Assembly (NCBI GenBank): GCA_013373445.1
Contig: JABXHV010000082.1
Location: 1-49,582, forward strand
DNA from: Paracoccaceae bacterium
GTDB taxonomy: Bacteria > Pseudomonadota > Alphaproteobacteria > Rhizobiales > Stappiaceae
Direction: 5' to 3'
DNA length: 49,582 nt
The translations under genes were made by a program, and so were the position numbers. The notes beneath the pieces are model-generated. The model saw nothing but the letters and a program-made list of their open reading frames with translations, did not search any database and was not told where the DNA came from. This document shows, in pieces, positions 11,997 through 42,637 of the stretch (the first letter of the stretch is position 1; each line of letters begins with the position of its first letter).

Positions 11997-12773
11997 TCAG
12001 GGACGCCGGCGCAGCACTGACAGAGAATACGTCGCGAACACGCCAATCAGAGTCGCAGCAAGCCCGAACCACGTGAGCGCATAACCAAGGTGATCGTTCT
12101 TGAAACGGACCACAGTTTCTCCAGCCTGTGGCAAACCTTCTGGACCTGTGAACTCTGCATCAAGGTCGATGCTGTATGGGGCAAGGTTATCGGGGTTCAG
12201 GCCCAGCACCTTGGCCATATGTTCAGTGTCGCGTGCGAACCATATCCGGTTTGTCTCATCAGCTTCCGGTGTCGTCCAATTCGGTGTTTCGGACCGGCGG
12301 AGCAACCCCACCAGTTTCAGTGAACCTGTTGGAACCTCTTCAACAGCAGACCTTTGATGGCGAAAGACGTCTTGTGGGATGAACCCTCGGTTCACGAGCA
12401 CAGACCATCCGTCTTTTGTCTGAAATGGGCTATAGAGCATATACCCCGGCCCACTATAGCGCCCGGAGCGTTCCGGCAATGAAGTGAAATAATAAGCCGA
12501 CCCCTGCAGAAAACTGCCCGTGATCGAGACATGGCGATAGTCGAGCGCCAGTACCTCTTCATCATTTTCAAGCGCCCCCCACGAAGCAGGGCCCGGAGCC
12601 GCTTCTGGTGGCGCATCGATCGAGGCCGTAACGTGAGCGATCAGATCTTCTTTTTCTGCAAGACGATCAAGCTGCCAATTCCCAAGTGCCAACAAGACAA
12701 GAAGTGCGGGCACCGCAAAAGCGGTCAACCAAACAAGGTGCCTTGCGGGCTTGGTGCGGTGCTCTTTTTGCAT
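11997..12773 (-). CDS. SURF1 family cytochrome oxidase assembly protein
   Basis: A 258-residue inner-membrane protein of the SURF1/Shy1 family, which helps insert heme a into subunit I of aa3 oxidase. It has two membrane helices at the ends, LVWLTAFAVPALLVLLALGNWQ with the family's LGxWQLxR motif (GNWQLDRL) and a C-terminal helix near 232-252. Between them is a periplasmic domain with LVNRGFIPQDV and the final PNDHLGYALTWFGL-like segment (here NDHLGYALTWFGLA). It starts 3 nt after the DUF983 stop, with GAGAAG as ribosome site. It is the last gene of the oxidase cluster, and the peroxiredoxin terminator lies just beyond its end. Confidence 0.93.
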   Translation of the reverse strand: MQKEHRTKPARHLVWLTAFAVPALLVLLALGNWQLDRLAEKEDLIAHVTASIDAPPEAAPGPASWGALENDEEVLALDYRHVSITGSFLQGSAYYFTSLPERSGRYSGPGYMLYSPFQTKDGWSVLVNRGFIPQDVFRHQRSAVEEVPTGSLKLVGLLRRSETPNWTTPEADETNRIWFARDTEHMAKVLGLNPDNLAPYSIDLDAEFTGPEGLPQAGETVVRFKNDHLGYALTWFGLAATLIGVFATYSLSVLRRRP

Positions 12774-12776
12774 GTC

Positions 12777-13166
12777 TTACTTCTCACTGTCATCCAACTC
12801 ACCCTCATGGGCACTGTGGTGATATTGGGCCCCTATCATCATGCCCTTTAGCGGCCGCAGAACACCCACAGACAACAAAACCGTCAAGGGCAACCATAGG
12901 ACCAGATGGACCCAGATTGGCGGCTGATAGGAGAGTTCAACTGCAAGAACCAATCCGACAACGATAAACCCGACAAGCATGATGACAAACACGGCGGGCC
13001 CGTCACCACTGTCGGCAAAAGAGTAGTTGGTTCCGCACTCATCGCATTCATCGCGCAGAGTCAGAAAGCCCTTGAAGAGCTTTCCTTTGCCGCATTCTGG
13101 ACAACGGCCTTTCAGGCCTGCCACCACAGCTGAGATCTCAGTATTGGCAACCTTTGATTCTGGCAT
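12777..13166 (-). CDS. DUF983 zinc-ribbon membrane protein of the cox cluster
   Basis: A 129-residue DUF983 protein. The N-terminal four-cysteine ribbon is RCPECGKGKLFKGF followed by CDECG, then two hydrophobic helices (VFVIMLVGFIVVGLVLAVEL and WVHLVLWLPLTVLLSVGVL). Function is unknown. Its fixed position between ctaE and SURF1 suggests a part in oxidase assembly. The start was set at ATG 13166 (MPESKVANTE), where AAAGGA lies 7 nt upstream. The longer frame from 13238 lacks such a site and adds unrelated residues. Confidence 0.9.
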   Translation of the reverse strand: MPESKVANTEISAVVAGLKGRCPECGKGKLFKGFLTLRDECDECGTNYSFADSGDGPAVFVIMLVGFIVVGLVLAVELSYQPPIWVHLVLWLPLTVLLSVGVLRPLKGMMIGAQYHHSAHEGELDDSEK

Positions 13167-13292
13167 GACAGCGTCCTTTGATGGCAATGAGACTAGTCTG
13201 GGAAAACGAAAGATGCCCGAACCAATATGGCCGGGCACCTTTCAAATCAGATTTATAGAGCAGGAGCGAGGCGCCGCGCCTCACCGGTCACT

Positions 13293-14165
13293 CTAGTGAA
13301 CCGATGGCGTACCTGCGCCCCAGATGTAAATGGCGACAAAGAGGAAGATCCAGACAACATCAACAAAGTGCCAATACCAAGCCGCAGCTTCGAACCCGAA
13401 ATGCTGTTCCTTGGTGAAATGCCCTGCCAATGCCCGGAACAGGCAGACTGCCAGAAAGATGGTCCCGACAATAACGTGGAAGCCATGGAAGCCGGTCGCC
13501 ACGTAGAACGTCGCTCCGTAAATGTGTCCTCCCAGCTCAAAGGTGGCATGTGAGTACTCATATGCTTGGCAAATACTGAAGACCAAGCCGAGAATGACGG
13601 TTACGATCAAACCCCACTTGAGGCCCTCACGATCATCATGCAACAACGCATGGTGAGCCCAAGTCACGCTCGTTCCTGATGCAAGAAGGATGAGCGTGTT
13701 GAACAATGGCAAATGCCATGGATCAAATGTCTCGATGCCTTCTGGCGGCCAAACTCCACCGGTAAACGCAACGCGGCTGACCTGGATCGCTTCGTCGGCA
13801 AAAAGAGCTGCATCAAAATAGGCCCAGAACCATGCGACGAAGAACATTACCTCAGAGGCAATGAACAACAGCATGCCATAGCGCAAATGCAGTGAAACAA
13901 CGCGCGTGTGATGGCCCTCATGAGCTTCCTTGATCGTATCGCGCCACCAGAGGCTCGAGATGATCACGACGCCAACAAACCCGACCGCAAAGAGCTTCCA
14001 ACCGGCCAGATCCACCCCAAAGAGGTCAAAACTGGCGCCACTCGACAACTTCATGAAGCCGATGCCTCCAAGTGCCATGACGAAAACGCTCATGGAAACC
14101 AGGAACGGCCACGGACTCGGATCTACCAGATGGTAGTCGTGATGTTTGTTATGTGCCTCCGCCAT
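13293..14165 (-). CDS. ctaE: Cytochrome c oxidase subunit III
   Basis: Third core subunit of the aa3 oxidase, a 290-residue membrane protein with seven helices. It binds lipid near the proton entry and stabilises subunit I. Recognisable segments are [14 protein letters not shown] (12-25), [37 protein letters not shown] and the C-terminal [25 protein letters not shown] lies about 7 nt before the ATG at 14165. It follows ctaG after 47 nt and is followed by DUF983 and SURF1, the order usual for alphaproteobacterial aa3 clusters. Confidence 0.97.
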
Positions 14166-14212
14166 AAACTAGCTCCCCCAACACATTGCTTCTCGTTGCG
14201 ACATTAACGAGA

Positions 14213-14824
14213 CTATAGCTTCGTTTCTAACTCTGTTTCCGTTGCGAGCGTCGAGACCTCGGCCTCCGACTCAGGCACAGGAAAGAATGTATAAGATAAC
14301 GTGATTTCTTTCACGTTCTTCAACTCAGGATCGCGATCCATTTCCGGATCAACGAAAAACACCACCGGCATTTCAACCCGCTCACCGCTTTCCAGCGGCT
14401 GTTCGGTAAAGCAAAAGCACTCGAGTTTGTTGAAATAGGCTCCCGCCTCATTCGGCGTTACATTAAACACCGACGTTCCAACCGTCTTTCGTTCACTCAA
14501 ATTGCGCGCGACGTAGGCGACTTGTCCGGTCTCGCCCATATGCAGTGTGACCGTGCGTTGCTTGGGTTTGAACTCCCAATAAAGCTCATGATTGACGTTG
14601 CCATCCAGACGGACTGTTATCTTCCGCTCAATAACTGTTTCGCTTTCACGTTCTGCAACCTGGGTTGTCCCGCCATATCCGGTTACCTGGCAAAACAACT
14701 TGTAGAGCGGCACGGCGGCATAAGATGCGCCGACCATGACAAAGAACAGACCCGCGCATGACAACGCAACCACCATATTGCGGTTGTTGTTGCCTGACTC
14801 CCGTGTCTTGTCTTCTTCGCTCAT
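14213..14824 (-). CDS. ctaG: Cytochrome c oxidase assembly protein CtaG/Cox11
   Basis: Copper chaperone that delivers Cu to the CuB site of subunit I. The 203 residues comprise one N-terminal membrane helix (17-40) and a periplasmic immunoglobulin-like domain. The copper-binding pair is Cys136/Cys138 in LECFCFTEQPL, and the helix-proximal cysteine is Cys45 in LFCQVTGYGG. The end of the domain has VEMPVVFFVDPE. GGGAGG precedes the ATG. It lies 19 nt after the 53-residue small gene and is part of the same transcript as ctaB and ctaE by spacing. Confidence 0.96.
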   Translation of the reverse strand: MSEEDKTRESGNNNRNMVVALSCAGLFFVMVGASYAAVPLYKLFCQVTGYGGTTQVAERESETVIERKITVRLDGNVNHELYWEFKPKQRTVTLHMGETGQVAYVARNLSERKTVGTSVFNVTPNEAGAYFNKLECFCFTEQPLESGERVEMPVVFFVDPEMDRDPELKNVKEITLSYTFFPVPESEAEVSTLATETELETKL

Positions 14825-14843
14825 GGCCTCCCCCGTTCGCGCG

Positions 14844-15005
14844 TTAAATAGGTCGGTTCAAAATTGCAGGACCCATTTTGATAACAGTCACAACGTAGAA
14901 CAAAACCACCAGCAGGCCTAGCACGATCGCGATCGCGACCGAGCGAGACCGCCGTCGGCTTTTCTGTTCATCTGTCAGCTTGATGCCGTTTGGTTCTTCA
15001 TTCAT
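14844..15005 (-). CDS. 53-residue membrane protein of the cox cluster (CoxF-like)
   Basis: A short gene reading [20 protein letters not shown] at its start, then a single hydrophobic helix (about 22-42, [20 protein letters not shown]) and the tail [12 protein letters not shown]. Its ATG overlaps the ctaB TGA as ATGA, and ctaG follows after 19 nt, so it is translationally coupled inside the oxidase operon. The basic cytoplasmic stretch KSRRRSR before the helix predicts N-in topology. Small proteins called CoxF sit at this point in other Rhizobiales, and that name is used from position and shape rather than from an alignment. A role as assembly factor or small subunit is inference. Confidence 0.85.
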
Positions 15006-15943
15006 GACACAAAGTACCTGGCAACAAGATGCTCCGCCAGCAGAACGGCGAACAGCGTGAACAGATAGAAAATCGAATAGGCAAAAAGACGAACACTGGC
15101 CTTCCGGGCAACTTCACCTTCGCGTTTGCGCCAGACATCAAATGCCATCCACAAAAACGCCGCTCCCATGACGGTCGAGATTGCACCGTATGCAATACCC
15201 GCCAAACCCACGGCACTTGGAAGTACTGTCAACGGCACGAGCAGGATCGAATAGATCAGAATCTGGTTGCGCGTCGACGTTTCCCCAGCAACAACAGGCA
15301 TCATCGGGATCCCGGCCGCCTTGTAATCACTGTTCTTGAACAGGGCGAGCGCCCAAAAGTGCGGCGGCGTCCACATGAAGATGATTAGAAACAGCAAAGC
15401 GCTCAGGTAGCTCACATCACCTGTCACCGACGCCCAACCGATCATCGGAGGGAAAGCGCCGGCAGCACCGCCAATGACGATGTTCTGCGGTGTCGAGCGC
15501 TTCAACCACATTGTGTAGATGACGACGTAGAAGAAAATCGTGAAGGCCAGAAACGCGCCTGCAAACCAGTTCACCAAAAGTCCCAGAACCAGGACAGAGC
15601 CAATCGACAAGGTCATTCCGAAGGTGAAGGCTTCCTCACGGGAGACCTTTCCGGCCGGGATCGGACGCTTAACGGTCCGGCTCATGATCCGGTCGATATC
15701 GGCGTCATACCACATGTTCAACGCGCCAGAAGCACCTGCGCCAACGGCAATACAGAGCAAAGCGACGCCGCCAAGCACAGGATGAATTTCACCCGGAGCC
15801 AGCATCATTCCAACAAATGCGGTAAAAATCACCAGCGACATGACACGTGGCTTCAGCAAAGCAACATAGTCGCTCACTGTCCCCTGCCCGCCGTTCCAGA
15901 CAAAGTCTTCAGTATCTAAATCGTGGCGCTCAATGAGCGACAT
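15002..15943 (-). CDS. ctaB: Protoheme IX farnesyltransferase (heme O synthase)
   Basis: Transfers a farnesyl group to heme b, giving heme O, the precursor of the heme a used by the oxidase. It is a 313-residue UbiA-superfamily membrane protein. The first aspartate-rich motif is NMWYDADID (76-84), followed by [12 protein letters not shown], and the second conserved region is [20 protein letters not shown]. The N-terminus has [19 protein letters not shown]. It starts 128 nt after ctaD and ends in an ATGA overlap with the small CoxF-like gene. The distant relative ubiA (30048-30992) differs in its motif NDIIDEDID. Confidence 0.97.
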
Positions 15944-36843: not shown

Positions 36844-37314
36844 ATGTCTCAGCTGCCACCCAAGAACACCTATAGCTCGTTCATGAGCATTGCCCTTGAA
36901 GAGGCCCAGAAAGCTGCTGAACGAGGTGAAGTGCCGGTTGGCGCCGTTCTGGTGCAAGATGGTGTGGTTCTGGCGCAAGCAGGTAACAGAACGCTAGAAC
37001 TGAATGATCCCACGGCTCATGCCGAGGTGCTCGTCATACGTGAGGCCTGCCAGCAGATCTCCAGCCAGCGTCTGCCAAACGCCGACCTCTATGTAACTCT
37101 GGAACCCTGCCCGATGTGTGCCGCAGCGATCTCGTTTGCGCGCATCAAGCGTCTGTACTATGGCGCGCAAGACGCCAAAGGCGGCGCGGTCGAAAGCGGC
37201 ACATGTTTCTTTGAGCAGCCTACGTGCCATCATGCACCTGAAGTTTACAGCGGATTGAGTGAACGAGCCTCCAAAGACCTCCTGCAAAAGTTTTTCCAAA
37301 GCCGCCGCTCATAG
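36844..37314 (+). CDS. tadA: tRNA-specific adenosine deaminase
   Basis: Deaminates A34 to inosine in tRNA-Arg(ACG), allowing it to read CGU, CGC and CGA. The 156 residues have the zinc and catalytic motif TAHAEVLVIREA (His59, Glu61) and PCPMCAAAI (Cys89, Cys92), plus FARIKRLYYGAQDAKGGAVES, which marks TadA over other cytidine deaminase relatives. No strong ribosome site precedes ATG 36844. It is divergent from the pseudouridine synthase gene, 152 nt away, so both tRNA and rRNA modification genes lie together. Confidence 0.95.
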   Translation: MSQLPPKNTYSSFMSIALEEAQKAAERGEVPVGAVLVQDGVVLAQAGNRTLELNDPTAHAEVLVIREACQQISSQRLPNADLYVTLEPCPMCAAAISFARIKRLYYGAQDAKGGAVESGTCFFEQPTCHHAPEVYSGLSERASKDLLQKFFQSRRS

Positions 37315-37508
37315 AAGTTCGGTTTTTTCGTTTTTCTCGATAATCGAAAGCGATTCTAAACTTTTGTGACGTATTTTTACTTACAAAGCGTCTGGATTGT
37401 AAAAAGTTACGAAACATCAACAATTCGCGCTTAAGTATTAATGCGTACAGAACACCCTCTAAAGGTGAAGTCGGTGCAGCAGGTTGATTGCTTCATAGGG
37501 GCACTTGA

Positions 37509-40500
37509 ATGGAATTCCGACAGGAAGCTCGCAAATTGGTCTCGAAAACATTGCTGATAAGCGGCCTTTTCGGAGCTCCAGCAGCCTTTGCACAAGACAA
37601 CGAAGCTGCATCCGTTTTGGCAGAAGTCCAACAGATGCTAGATGTTACCTGGGTCATCGTTGCGGCTTCGCTTGTTCTGCTGATGCAAGTCGGGTTTCTT
37701 TTGGTTGAAGCTGGATTAGTTCGTTCGAAAAACTCAATCAACGTCGCTCAAAAGAACCTTCTGGATCTAACGCTATCCGTTCTGGTCTTCGCCGCATTCG
37801 GCTTCATGCTGGCCTTTGGTATCGCCGGCAGCTGGCCACTTGGCGCGGACAGCAAGTTCTTCATGCTGCAAGACCTGACGCCCTGGCAGTTGGCCTTCTT
37901 CACTTTTCAAGCGATGTTCTGCGGAACGGCAGCCACGATCATATCTGGTGCAGTTGCCGAACGGATGCGCCTGACTGGCTACATCTGGGTCACGTTGCTC
38001 ACTGCTGGCATTCTCTATCCCGTTTTTGCGCATCTGGCGTGGGGCAACGCCCTGTTCGATAACAACAGCGCCTTTCTGGCAACTGGCGGCTTTGTCGATT
38101 TTGCTGGTTCAACTGTTGTCCACGCCACGGGTGGCTGGATCGCACTTGCTGCCGTGATGATCATGGGGCCTCGTATTGGGCGCTTCGACCCGCTCGGTAG
38201 ACCCATACGCATTCAGGGCCATAGTCCGGTCCTGTCCACCGCGGGCACATTGATCCTGTTTGTTGGCTGGATCGGATTCAACGGCGGCTCGACACTGGCA
38301 GCGAACAGTGACGTCGCGCCAATCATCGTCAACACCATCCTGGCGGCCTCAACGGGTGCGATCATGGGTTACTACATCGGCAAGCGCCAGGATCACGGCA
38401 TCGTCCTGCCGGCAAAATCACTCTCAGGCATGCTCGGCGGTCTGGCAGCCGTCACTGCTGGCTGTCAGGTTTTGACGCCTACCGGCGGTGCCCTGGTTGG
38501 ACTTTTGGGCGGCGCGGCGGCTGTCTTCGGCAATTCCTTTCTCGAGAGAAAAATGAAGATCGATGACCCGGCGGGCGCAATCGGTGTTCATGCGATTGCC
38601 GGGGTCTGCGGTACACTTGCACTGGCCATTCTCGCACCAGTCGAGAACCTGCCACTCGGTGAACATTTCGCGCAGTTCTTTGTGCAGCTGCAAGGCGTTG
38701 GCATCAACTTTGTTTGGTGCTTCGGCGGCGGTTACATCCTTTTGACTCTCTTGAACCGGTTTTCACCTTTGCGTGTTTCGGCACAGGATGAAGAAGTCGG
38801 AATCAACCAGGCGGAACATGGCAGTCGTCTCGGTGTCGGTCATGTTGAAGACGCCCTGGAGCGCGTCATCAGCAACAAGGCCGATCTAAACCTTAGGCTC
38901 AATGTATCGCAAGGCGATGACAGTGAACGCATCACGCGTCTGTTCAATGCCTTGATGGATACAATCCAAAATGAAGAGACTGCACAGGTCAAACAGGCAA
39001 ACGCTAAACGTACTCGCGAGGAAGCTGAGCGCCTCTCCGCTCTTGCAAATGCGACCTTCGATGCGATTGTCATCTCGGTTGACGGAAAGATCTTGGACGG
39101 CAACCAGACACTTGAAACGCTTTTGGGATACAGCATCGAAGATTTGAAGATGCGCGGACTCTATGAATTCGTGAACTCAGAAGCGAGCGAAACACTTGAA
39201 ACACATCTGATCAAGGCAGAACGCGCGCCACGCGAGTTCGAGCTGATCAATTGTGACGGCGAAACCATCCCGGTTGAAATTCGCACACGCGTCATTTCCT
39301 ATCGTGGAACACCGACCCGCGTTTCTGCCCTGGTCGACTTGCGCGAGCGCAAAAAGGCCGAGGAGCGTATTTTGCACCTCGCGCAGCACGACAATTTGAC
39401 TGACCTGCCAAACCGCTCTGTCTTTACCAGCGAACTGTCTTCCGCTCTGCAGACATGCAAGCGAGGAAAGCGGATGGCGGCTCTGCTGTTGATCGATCTT
39501 GACCACTTCAAGGACATCAACGATCTGCACGGTCACCCTACCGGTGACAAGGTACTCAAGGTTACAGCTGAACGCCTGTCCAAGATCAGCCGCAAGTCGG
39601 ATTCTCCATTCCGACTGGCAGGTGATGAATTCGCATTGATCCAACGTGGCGTGCAATTCAATGCACAGGCGCAAGACGTAGCCCGCCGCCTGATTGAAGT
39701 GCTGTGCGAACCGATCGACTGCGGAGACGGCCTGCTGGTACGCCCTAGCGTCAGCGTCGGTATTTCAATGATTACGGGCAACCAAAGCGAGGCCGCCGAG
39801 CAAATCGTCTACCAGGCCGACATCGCGCTCTTTAATGCGAAAAACGCCGGCCGTAGAACTTTCTGCTTCTATAAAGATGGAATGGGGGAAGCTGTACGCC
39901 AGCGCCGCGAGACAGAGGCTGCGTTGCACACGGCCATTGCAGAAGAGCAATTCGAGCTTTTCTTTCAGCCGCGCATGAACATGAGCACCGGAAAGATAAA
40001 TAACTACGAAGCCTTGATACGTTGGCAACATCCTGAAAAGGGAACCATCAGTCCGGTGGAGTTTATCCCGGTCGCAGAATCCAGCGGTTTGATCGTACCG
40101 ATCGGTAAATGGGTTCTGGAGACTGCACTGCGCTGCGCCGCTGCCGATATCCCTGACGCAAAGATCAGCGTCAATGTCAGCCCGATCCAGCTACGCGACA
40201 GCAACTTTGTCGATTATGTCGAGCAAGCATTGTCAGATTCCGGCGTGCCCGCCGAACGTCTGGAGCTGGAAATAACCGAAAGCCTGCTGATCGAAGATGA
40301 CGCTCGTGCCCTGAATATCTTGAACCGGCTCAAGTCGCTTGGAATTCGTCTGGCACTGGATGACTTTGGTGTAGGATATTCATCACTCGGCTATCTCAGC
40401 CGGTTCCCGTTCGACACGATCAAGATCGACAAGTCCTTCATTCAGGACACGTCAGAAGTGAGCAGTGCCCTGGCCATCATTGAAAGTGTGGTCCATCTCG

Positions 40501-40718
40501 GGCGCGCCTTGAAAATGTCAATTGTGGTCGAAGGAGTGGAAACGGCGGACAAGATCCCACTCTTGCAGACCATTGGCTGCGATGAAGTACAGGGCTACCT
40601 GATCGGCAAGCCAGCATCGATCGACAACCTTCTGACAGAAGCACCGGCCGAAATCATTGCATTGCTGAAGCAAGACGAACCATCTTTGCAAGAAGAAGAA
40701 CTGACGCTGTCAGCATAA
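37509..40718 (+). CDS. Ammonium transporter fused to HAMP-like, PAS, GGDEF and EAL domains
   Basis: A 1069-residue inner-membrane protein. The signal-like N-terminus (1-29) is followed by a full Amt domain (40-418) with channel residues matching E. coli AmtB: Trp178 (AHLAWG), Asp197 (VDFAG), twin histidines His205 and His361, and Phe257/Ser261 (GFNGGS). A HAMP-like linker (441-487), a PAS (508-612), GGDEF (618-790) and EAL (800-1055) follow. The GGDEF site is AGDEF (704-708) with an intact I-site RKSD (695-698). The EAL set is complete: E834-A-L, Asn889, Glu921, Asp951/Asp952, Lys972, Glu1008 and Gln1028. It may sense or carry ammonium and change c-di-GMP. No glnK is adjacent. The net direction is unknown. 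Confidence 0.93.
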   Translation: MEFRQEARKLVSKTLLISGLFGAPAAFAQDNEAASVLAEVQQMLDVTWVIVAASLVLLMQVGFLLVEAGLVRSKNSINVAQKNLLDLTLSVLVFAAFGFMLAFGIAGSWPLGADSKFFMLQDLTPWQLAFFTFQAMFCGTAATIISGAVAERMRLTGYIWVTLLTAGILYPVFAHLAWGNALFDNNSAFLATGGFVDFAGSTVVHATGGWIALAAVMIMGPRIGRFDPLGRPIRIQGHSPVLSTAGTLILFVGWIGFNGGSTLAANSDVAPIIVNTILAASTGAIMGYYIGKRQDHGIVLPAKSLSGMLGGLAAVTAGCQVLTPTGGALVGLLGGAAAVFGNSFLERKMKIDDPAGAIGVHAIAGVCGTLALAILAPVENLPLGEHFAQFFVQLQGVGINFVWCFGGGYILLTLLNRFSPLRVSAQDEEVGINQAEHGSRLGVGHVEDALERVISNKADLNLRLNVSQGDDSERITRLFNALMDTIQNEETAQVKQANAKRTREEAERLSALANATFDAIVISVDGKILDGNQTLETLLGYSIEDLKMRGLYEFVNSEASETLETHLIKAERAPREFELINCDGETIPVEIRTRVISYRGTPTRVSALVDLRERKKAEERILHLAQHDNLTDLPNRSVFTSELSSALQTCKRGKRMAALLLIDLDHFKDINDLHGHPTGDKVLKVTAERLSKISRKSDSPFRLAGDEFALIQRGVQFNAQAQDVARRLIEVLCEPIDCGDGLLVRPSVSVGISMITGNQSEAAEQIVYQADIALFNAKNAGRRTFCFYKDGMGEAVRQRRETEAALHTAIAEEQFELFFQPRMNMSTGKINNYEALIRWQHPEKGTISPVEFIPVAESSGLIVPIGKWVLETALRCAAADIPDAKISVNVSPIQLRDSNFVDYVEQALSDSGVPAERLELEITESLLIEDDARALNILNRLKSLGIRLALDDFGVGYSSLGYLSRFPFDTIKIDKSFIQDTSEVSSALAIIESVVHLGRALKMSIVVEGVETADKIPLLQTIGCDEVQGYLIGKPASIDNLLTEAPAEIIALLKQDEPSLQEEELTLSA

Positions 40719-40738: not shown

Positions 40739-42637
40739 TCATTTGCGTCCAAATAGCTTTTCAATATCAGTCAGTTTGAGTTCAACCCAGGTCGGGCGCC
40801 CATGGTTACACTGACCTGAAAGCGGGGTTGCTTCCATTTCGCGGAGCAAAGCGTCCATCTCCTGCGCCCGCATGCGCCGTCCAGCCCGAATTGAGCCATG
40901 ACATGCCATCGTGGCAGCCACATGGTCCAGCTTTTCGCGCAGCCCTGTTGCAGTATCCCATTCCACAAGCTCATCCGCGAGATCCTGAACCATCCCCCGG
41001 ATATTCATGTCACCAAGCATCGCGGGGGTTTCGCGAACCGCAATTGCGCCTGGACCGAACGCTTCCAGGCTCAGCCCCACTTGCTCGAGCTCTTCGGCAC
41101 GCTCCACCAAACGCGCCGCGTCTTCTTCCGGCATCTCGATGACTTCCGGAATAAGAAGGATCTGACGCGCAACCGCCTTGCTGGCAAGCGCTTCCTTCAA
41201 CCGCTCATATACCAGTCGCTCATGGGCGGCATGTTGATCAACAATGACAACGCCCGTCTCTGTCTGCGCAATGATGTAAGTTTCATGCAGCTGAGCACGT
41301 GCCGCGCCAAGGGGCAAAGCAGTCTTTTCGGTCTCAAGCGGAAGGTCATTGGCGCGCGCATCTGCAGATGGGACCTGAAAGCCACTCAACCCTTGCTGGA
41401 ACTCCTCAGCGACTTCGGACCCGACCTCAGAAAAGCCGGTTCCAGCACCTGCATATTGGTCAACAGGTTGGTCGAAGGGCGCAAAACTTTGATTGTCCCA
41501 GTGCCTAGATGACTGAGACCAACCGGAGGTCTGGCCGGCACCGTAGGACTGAGATCCAGATGACGTTTGAGGTGCGGACGTCTGATGACTGCCGGCCCGC
41601 AAGGCATCCAGGGCAACTGCTGCATTTGATGTTGAAGACCGGTGCCCTGCTTGTACCAATGCCTGCTTGATCGCCCCGACAAGGAGCCCTCGCACCAGTT
41701 GCCCATCGCGAAAGCGCACATCTGCCTTGGCGGGGTGGACGTTCACGTCGACATAGGTCGGTTCCAAATCGACAAACAGCACGACGACTGGATGGCGATC
41801 ACGCGCTAAAACATCGGCATAGGCACCACGCAATCCCGACAACAAAAGCTTGTCCTTCACTGGACGGCCATTGACGAAGAAGAACTGCTGTTGCGCATTG
41901 CCCCGATGATAGGTCGGCAGGCCGGCATACCCATGGAGGCGGACACCCTCACGCATGGCATCGATATGCATCGCGTTGTCCACGAACTCCTGTCCGAGGA
42001 CCTGCGCAATGCGCGTGAGATGCGCATCTTCACCCCGGGCGGCGGGCCAGGACTGTGATTGCCTGTCGGCACCGCCGAGTGAGAAACCGACTTCAGGATA
42101 AGCCAGGGCGATCCGCTTGACGATTTCGGTTACTGCAGCGGATTCAGCGCGGTCGGATTTCAGGAACTTCAAACGCGCCGGAGTGGCAAAGAAAAGATCA
42201 CGGACCTCGACCTGAGTTCCCTTGTGACGTGCTGCCGGCATAATAGGTTGTTCCACACCGCCCTCGACCGCTATTTTCCAAGCATGATCTTCATCAGCGT
42301 TGCGCGTCTGGATGGACAAGCGGGCCACGGAACCGATGGACGGCAGCGCCTCTCCGCGAAATCCGAGTGTTCTAATATCGAACAAATCGTCTCGGCTTAT
42401 CTTGGAAGTGCAATGCCTGCGGATTGCCAATTGCAAATCATGCTGATCCATTCCGTGACCATCATCCGACACACGCATCAGCGTTTTACCGCCGGCGGCA
42501 GTGACCACTTCAATCGAATTGGCGCCCGCATCAACTGCGTTCTCTACAAGTTCCTTGATGACGCTCGCAGGGCGCTCGATGACTTCACCAGCGGCGATCC
42601 GGTTGATGACATCTTCATCGAGTTGTCTTACCTGCAT
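40739..42637 (-). CDS. mutL: DNA mismatch repair protein MutL
   Basis: ATPase that links MutS mismatch recognition to strand incision. The GHKL domain has [14 protein letters not shown] with Glu29 and Asn33, DDGHGMD and [11 protein letters not shown]. The C-terminal endonuclease motif [12 protein letters not shown] is at 467-478, with ACHGSI and CNHGRP as further metal-site segments. It is therefore a nicking MutL, as expected where MutH is absent. Between about 350 and 440 is a Ser/Gln/Gly-rich linker. 632 residues is normal. It is divergent from the HAD gene with 107 nt between. Confidence 0.97.

Follow-up and report, generated by a model that had tools for sequence, protein, structure and literature searches.

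What does an ammonium transporter domain do at the head of a chain that ends in enzymes of c-di-GMP turnover? The question is raised by one gene in the window, the 49,582-nucleotide stretch of contig JABXHV010000082.1 (Paracoccaceae bacterium; GTDB family Stappiaceae). A single intact open frame of 1069 codons encodes one 1069-residue fusion protein, and its features are collected in Table 1. The protein is probably a receptor for ammonium, built on an Amt module in the membrane, and it would shift the balance between c-di-GMP synthesis and breakdown through its predicted ammonium site and its two predicted activities.

The open frame, Pfam matches, and linker comparisons agree on a single protein of the order Amt, HAMP-like linker, PAS, GGDEF, and EAL, as a sequence-only reading of this DNA had described it. 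The domain search proposed in that reading returned Pfam matches for Amt, PAS, GGDEF, and EAL. The fusion protein scores 338 bits against PF00909 (curated cut-off 23.2) and 354 against TIGR00836, the NCBIfam amt model (cut-off 343.3). By domain match it is a member of the Amt branch of the Amt/Rh ammonium transporter superfamily. Because such fusions can score above the NCBIfam amt cut-off, automatic annotation may label them as plain ammonium transporters. The linker gave no Pfam HAMP match in the protein itself, even at E = 10. Of 10 aligned orthologues, however, 4 do match HAMP, with a best E of 1.9e-5, and when residues 438-505 were compared with the linkers of 11 Amt-MCP proteins, 7 matched at E <= 1e-3 (best 5.7e-7), a count in which L096 is a near copy of L098; L098 itself, with its own HAMP match at 9.2e-8, lies outside the seven. 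The description of the linker as HAMP-like is therefore fair.

Table 1. Coordinates of features in the window and, where a locus is named, in other genomes.
Feature	Coordinates	Strand	Basis
TadA-like nucleoside/tRNA-type deaminase (putative name), upstream neighbor, not part of the system	36844..37314	+	Pfam, synteny
Amt-HAMP-like-PAS-GGDEF-EAL fusion protein, 1069 aa (P0001)	37509..40718	+	Open frame, Pfam, homologues
Probable cleaved signal peptide, residues 1-29, ends AFA/QD	37509..37595	+	By eye from sequence
Amt receptor domain, residues 48-439	37650..38825	+	Pfam PF00909 Ammonium_transp 6.4e-101
Predicted two-ammonium site stretch, Q60, E67, N83, D86, T143, S146	37686..37946	+	Alignment with Ks-Amt5 Q24, E31, N47, D50, T109, T112
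N433, Asn versus Asp of transporters, common to 127/127 aligned fusions	38805..38807	+	Alignment
HAMP-like linker, residues 440-505	38826..39023	+	HAMP in 4/10 orthologues; match to Amt-MCP linkers
PAS domain, residues 518-611	39060..39341	+	PAS_9 3.2e-9
GGDEF domain, residues 625-783	39381..39857	+	Pfam 2.2e-40
I-site RKSD, residues 695-698	39591-39602	+	Motif
AGDEF motif, residues 704-708	39618-39632	+	Motif
EAL domain, residues 804-1035, catalytic residues present	39918..40613	+	Pfam 2.5e-71
mutL, downstream neighbor, convergent, not part of system	40739..42637	-	Pfam, synteny
Second GGDEF-EAL protein of the window, 977 aa	3254-6187	-	
206-218-aa protein	L124:6268-6924, L125:6311-6955, L127:6245-6898	+	Beside receptor-site stand-alone Amts
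206-218-aa protein	L128:5447-6091, L126:2412-3032	-	Beside receptor-site stand-alone Amts
Two Amt fusions of G026, 1079 and 1071 aa	L135:4606-7845 and 11999-15214	-	
VUPS-GGDEF protein	L188:9121-10467		
Amt-MCP-PilZ protein (G007)	L251:2817-5489		
Long Amt protein, 728 aa	L308:946-3132	-	

The receptor assignment rests first on the ammonium site. Ks-Amt5 is described in PMC5764959 as binding two ammonium ions via Q24, E31, N47, D50, T51, T109, and T112 and as not translocating ammonium efficiently. These ligands align here with Q60, E67, N83, D86, L87, T143, and S146, so that five are identical, one is changed from Thr to Ser (S146), and one, T51, is lost to Leu87. The T51 position is Phe in the solved Amt-GGDEF chain 8qj3, and this ligand is therefore not common to the Ks-Amt5/8qj3 kind. 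Every site residue that the two solved chains share (Q, E, N, D, T, and Thr/Ser) is present in the fusion protein. Its nearest solved chains are 8qj3/8qpf (Amt plus GGDEF) at 294 bits and 6eu6, which is Ks-Amt5, at 282 bits; AmtB and Af-Amt1 match at 139-148 bits, about half the bits of the receptor-type chains.

The six-residue site was followed through 127 distinct Amt fusions (113 with GGDEF and EAL, 11 with MCP, 2 with kinase domains, and 1 Amt-PAS protein, L120). It reads QENDTS in 122, QENDTA in 2, EENDTS in 1, and QENNAS in 1; the remaining fusion, L123, comes from a cut stretch and lacks most of the site. The full QENDTS set occurs in 0 of 91 other distinct Amts, three of which are partial frames without the site columns; these 91 are a non-random sample, since they were drawn mostly from the best-scoring matches in Pseudomonadota, with the long protein L308 included. 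Part-matches among them read HEIDAS (13) or AENLSS (10), and these 23 have about half of the set; AENLSS is also what the genome's own transporter shows. A scan over every Amt column for positions with one residue in at least 95% of 126 fusions (L123 excluded) and that residue in at most 5% of 30 classical Amts picked 25 columns, all six site positions among them. Among the 392 Amt columns, 87 are invariant across an alignment of 33 sequences, again including all six, an outcome with a chance of about 1e-4 if invariant columns were placed at random.

The idea that only fused sensors have the ammonium site was weakened by five stand-alone Amts (L124-L128) that carry the full QENDTS signature, so the site alone is no proof of a fused sensor. 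A second search, covering 398 genomes, returned the same five and none further. No PII frame was found in these five loci. Directly after the Amt gene, all five encode a conserved protein of 206-218 residues, with 28-34% identity to the first of them. It gave no NCBIfam match (five checked), no Pfam match (three scanned), and no solved relative (one searched), and it may be a separate signaling partner.

A further one of the 25 scan columns is residue 433, in the C-terminal G-hydrophobic-(D/N) motif. This residue is Asn in every fusion (127/127) and in both solved receptor-type chains, versus Asp in 91/91 other Amts, the five receptor-site stand-alones, and both solved transporters. The 442-residue frame L129, which runs off a contig end, has Asn, as expected of a cut fusion. 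L308, counted among the 91, speaks against the marker, being a long Amt protein with Asp. In that protein the Amt domain, whose site reads RESDIS, is followed by a tail of about 340 residues without a Pfam match, perhaps a degenerate kinase-like output. In a quick tree (76 rows, SH-aLRT only), the fusions fall near one clade with 83% support, although that clade also takes in L129 and the long-branched L130, the genome's own transporter, and the outgroup is not clean. Given this grouping, the change from Asp to Asn may have happened once, and conservation among the fusions should not be counted as many independent events. The marker did not occur in the portions of the literature examined. Within the set examined, this one C-terminal Amt residue is an inexpensive way to tell fused receptors (Asn) from transporters (Asp) by sequence.

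The genomic setting also bears on the role of the Amt module. The window contains no PII gene, and both PII matches of the genome sit on other contigs, in agreement with the earlier remark that no glnK lies nearby. The genome, a 3.64-Mb draft in 201 contigs, encodes one other Amt (L130), of the marine subtype (TIGR03644, 629.5 bits versus a cut-off of 514), with a PII gene directly upstream. PII adjoins all 31 stand-alone Amt loci of a first control set (L130, L137-L166). Within the fetched stretches, a PII frame was found in 1 of 133 fusion loci (L112), a scan that leaves out L004-L022 with their short flanks and includes some duplicate fetches of a gene. In a second control set, 11 of 40-odd Amt loci had no PII frame in the short stretch fetched; PII adjacency is therefore common, not universal. 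The site residues, the lack of a nearby PII gene, and the nearest solved homologues (the Amt-GGDEF protein and Ks-Amt5) together support the part of the sequence-only reading that saw a sensor feeding c-di-GMP, with control by ammonium being its predicted component.

In the enzyme half, the AGDEF motif and the I-site RKSD lie where they had been reported. Among the 113 Amt-GGDEF-EAL relatives, the motif is GGDEF in 110, AGDEF in 2 (this protein and L219), and GGDEY in 1 (L089), and an I-site RxxD is found in 45, this protein counted. An AGDEF cyclase, VCA0965, is active (PMC3974145). The EAL domain has the full catalytic set attributed to it (E834, N889, E921, D951, D952, K972, E1008, and Q1028), and these residues are invariant in 33 homologues, this one included; a few EAL domains of the 113 are degenerate, for example one with DHFGTSS versus DDFGTGY. 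With motif, metal, and catalytic residues all present, c-di-GMP phosphodiesterase activity is predicted. We infer that the family is built for both synthesis and breakdown. Because the cyclase motif of this strain is AGDEF and not the GGDEF of the family, synthesis may be weaker here and the balance tilted toward breakdown. The genome holds 22 GGDEF and 16 EAL matches, and the fusion is thus one of many c-di-GMP proteins. The window itself encodes a second GGDEF-EAL protein.

Other outputs are found on the same receptor module. Amt is joined to MCP domains in L098, L101, L106, and L115 and to kinase domains in L104 and L108, which fits the expectation for a sensor. Amt-MCP proteins were also detected in three Roseibium-group genomes (L249, L250, and L251; by phmmer in all, by Pfam in L249 and L251). 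The one at L251, in genome G007, ends in a PilZ domain (1.1e-7) with the sequences RIFPR and NISIDG, which we take to be the usual c-di-GMP-binding motifs of PilZ, RxxxR...NxSxxG. G007 also encodes an Amt-GGDEF-EAL protein. From its domains, the L251 protein is possibly a chemoreceptor that reads both ammonium and c-di-GMP. Tentatively, these proteins could form a modular Amt-receptor family in which the QENDTS intramembrane site and the C-terminal change from Asp to Asn turn a transporter into a signal-transmitting receptor; Roseibium would then have an ammonium circuit in which Amt-GGDEF-EAL sets c-di-GMP and a chemoreceptor of the Amt-MCP-PilZ type, present in at least one species (G007), reads ammonium and c-di-GMP.

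The pore residues raise the question of whether the Amt domain also conducts. The twin histidines His205 and His361 align with Ks-Amt5 H171 and H326, so the histidine-less pore that the sequence-only reading had named as a refutation was not found; the Phe/Ser site is likewise in place, with F137/F257 aligned with the Phe gate of Ks-Amt5 and W178/S261 with its selectivity filter. The gate, filter, and His pair, as the set FWHFSH, are kept in 124 of 127 fusions. Their retention would suit a transceptor, in which the Amt domain still conducts ammonium and the GGDEF-EAL output is driven by transport, not by static binding. Of the helix-1 residues that block the pore of Ks-Amt5 (F27, Y30, and F34), not all are copied: the fusion has F63, V66, and L70, and the genome's own transporter has F, L, and L there; given this resemblance, the fusion could still conduct. 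However, Ks-Amt5, an inefficient translocator according to PMC5764959, also has the whole set of gate, filter, and His pair, and these residues therefore neither demonstrate conduction nor rule against it. The designation of the protein as an ammonium channel is accordingly not supported. Pore residues and helix-1 bulk proved unusable as a conduction test, the other Amt of the genome being alike at these positions. The lack of a PII gate nearby and the presence of a separate, PII-linked Amt in the genome also argue against transport-driven signaling, which we regard as a possible but doubtful account.

Information could also flow in reverse, with the cytoplasmic domains sensing c-di-GMP or GTP and gating an ammonium transporter. 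The I-site and the EAL domain could bind c-di-GMP, and AGDEF departs from the family motif. Yet nearly the whole family retains catalytic residues in both domains, which a pure binding role would not need, and the MCP and kinase outputs of the sister proteins are effectors, not gates; gating from the inside is thus improbable. That an Amt gene and a GGDEF-EAL gene were falsely joined, by the gene model or in the assembly, has nothing in its favor but the draft state of the genome. This explanation is refuted by full-length homologues in 26 of 44 other Roseibium genomes (27 of 45 with its own counted) and by the 113 distinct proteins with Amt, GGDEF, and EAL. Relatives among the best 80 of 316 loci and the same position between deaminase and mutL in several species also stand against it, leaving it a negligible probability.

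The fusion is not uncommon, as had been supposed, but widespread in Alphaproteobacteria and present in other classes of the phylum. A sample of 297 genomes from the order contains 26 with a frame of more than 1000 residues around an Amt match (E <= 1e-70), three of them (G263, G128, and G314) known by Amt match and frame length only; a sample of 398 from the phylum contains 16, and both counts include the own genome. With Amt-linker-PAS as the query, named genomes gave 316 stretches that encode a relative; the best 80 of these 316, which were kept, include Roseibium, Stappia, Rhizobium, Neorhizobium, Ciceribacter, Agrobacterium, Mesorhizobium, Devosia, Hyphomonadaceae, and others. Among the titles and abstract starts of the open-access matches listed, none had an Amt-GGDEF-EAL protein as its topic.

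The gap between deaminase and mutL holds the gene in 6 of 19 named Roseibium-group loci (L167-L184, L241), the other 13 not showing those neighbors, and no locus outside Roseibium shares the neighbors of the window. An operon link to nitrogen genes was considered and rejected: of ten neighboring frames scanned, nine had a Pfam match, and none of these is a nitrogen gene. A pattern scan of positions 37200-37700 for promoters and terminators found nothing. The Roseibium-group genome G026 encodes two Amt fusions about 4 kb apart. One gene family lies directly downstream of the fusion, on the same strand, in 19 of 59 loci (from L185-L246, where L241 is Roseibium); its single tested member is a VUPS-GGDEF protein, which would be another transporter-like sensor on a cyclase.

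These analyses allow a mechanism to be proposed for the favored ammonium receptor. Ammonium from outside would pass the W178/S261 filter and the Phe gate and settle in the predicted intramembrane two-cation site formed by Q60, E67, N83, D86, T143, and S146. Binding would move the C-terminal end of the Amt domain, which bears Asn433 in place of the Asp of transporters, and the movement would be relayed through the HAMP-like linker and the PAS domain to the GGDEF-EAL pair, shifting its balance of c-di-GMP synthesis versus breakdown. Uptake would be the job of the other, PII-linked marine-type Amt of the genome. If this is correct, external ammonium is linked directly, by one protein, to a messenger that often sets attachment or motility, and the link would reach across marine bacteria, many Rhizobiaceae, and other Rhizobiales.

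Comparison with known systems places the protein among Amt receptors. AmtB/GlnK-type transporters share the Amt fold and pore residues; unlike the fusion, they lack the receptor-site set, have Asp in the C-terminal motif, and adjoin PII, as in all loci of the first control set. DibA-type PAS-GGDEF-EAL proteins have the same domain order and catalytic residues, whereas the sensor input here is an Amt module; at 413 bits against the NCBIfam NF045675 cut-off of 980, the fusion protein is not DibA by the curated criterion. Ks-Amt5 of Kuenenia stuttgartiensis (6eu6) is an Amt receptor with an extra two-ammonium site, such as is predicted here, and likewise keeps the His pair, gate, and filter and has Asn at the 433 position; it differs in its histidine kinase output and in its T51, Y30, and F34, which the fusion does not copy. 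The Amt-GGDEF protein of 8qj3, 8qj4, and 8qpf, which we take to be the receptor Sd-Amt1 of Shewanella denitrificans (Sci Adv 2024), shares the Amt module, a GGDEF output, QENDTS, and Asn at the 433 position. Unlike the protein described here, its chains have 644-661 residues, no EAL or PAS domain was matched in them, and the motif is GGEEF. Judged by its domains, the fusion protein is of the fused-receptor kind represented by Ks-Amt5 and 8qj3, with Amt joined in one chain to a signaling output; it would be a receptor of known kind with a predicted c-di-GMP output fuller than that of the solved Amt-GGDEF protein.
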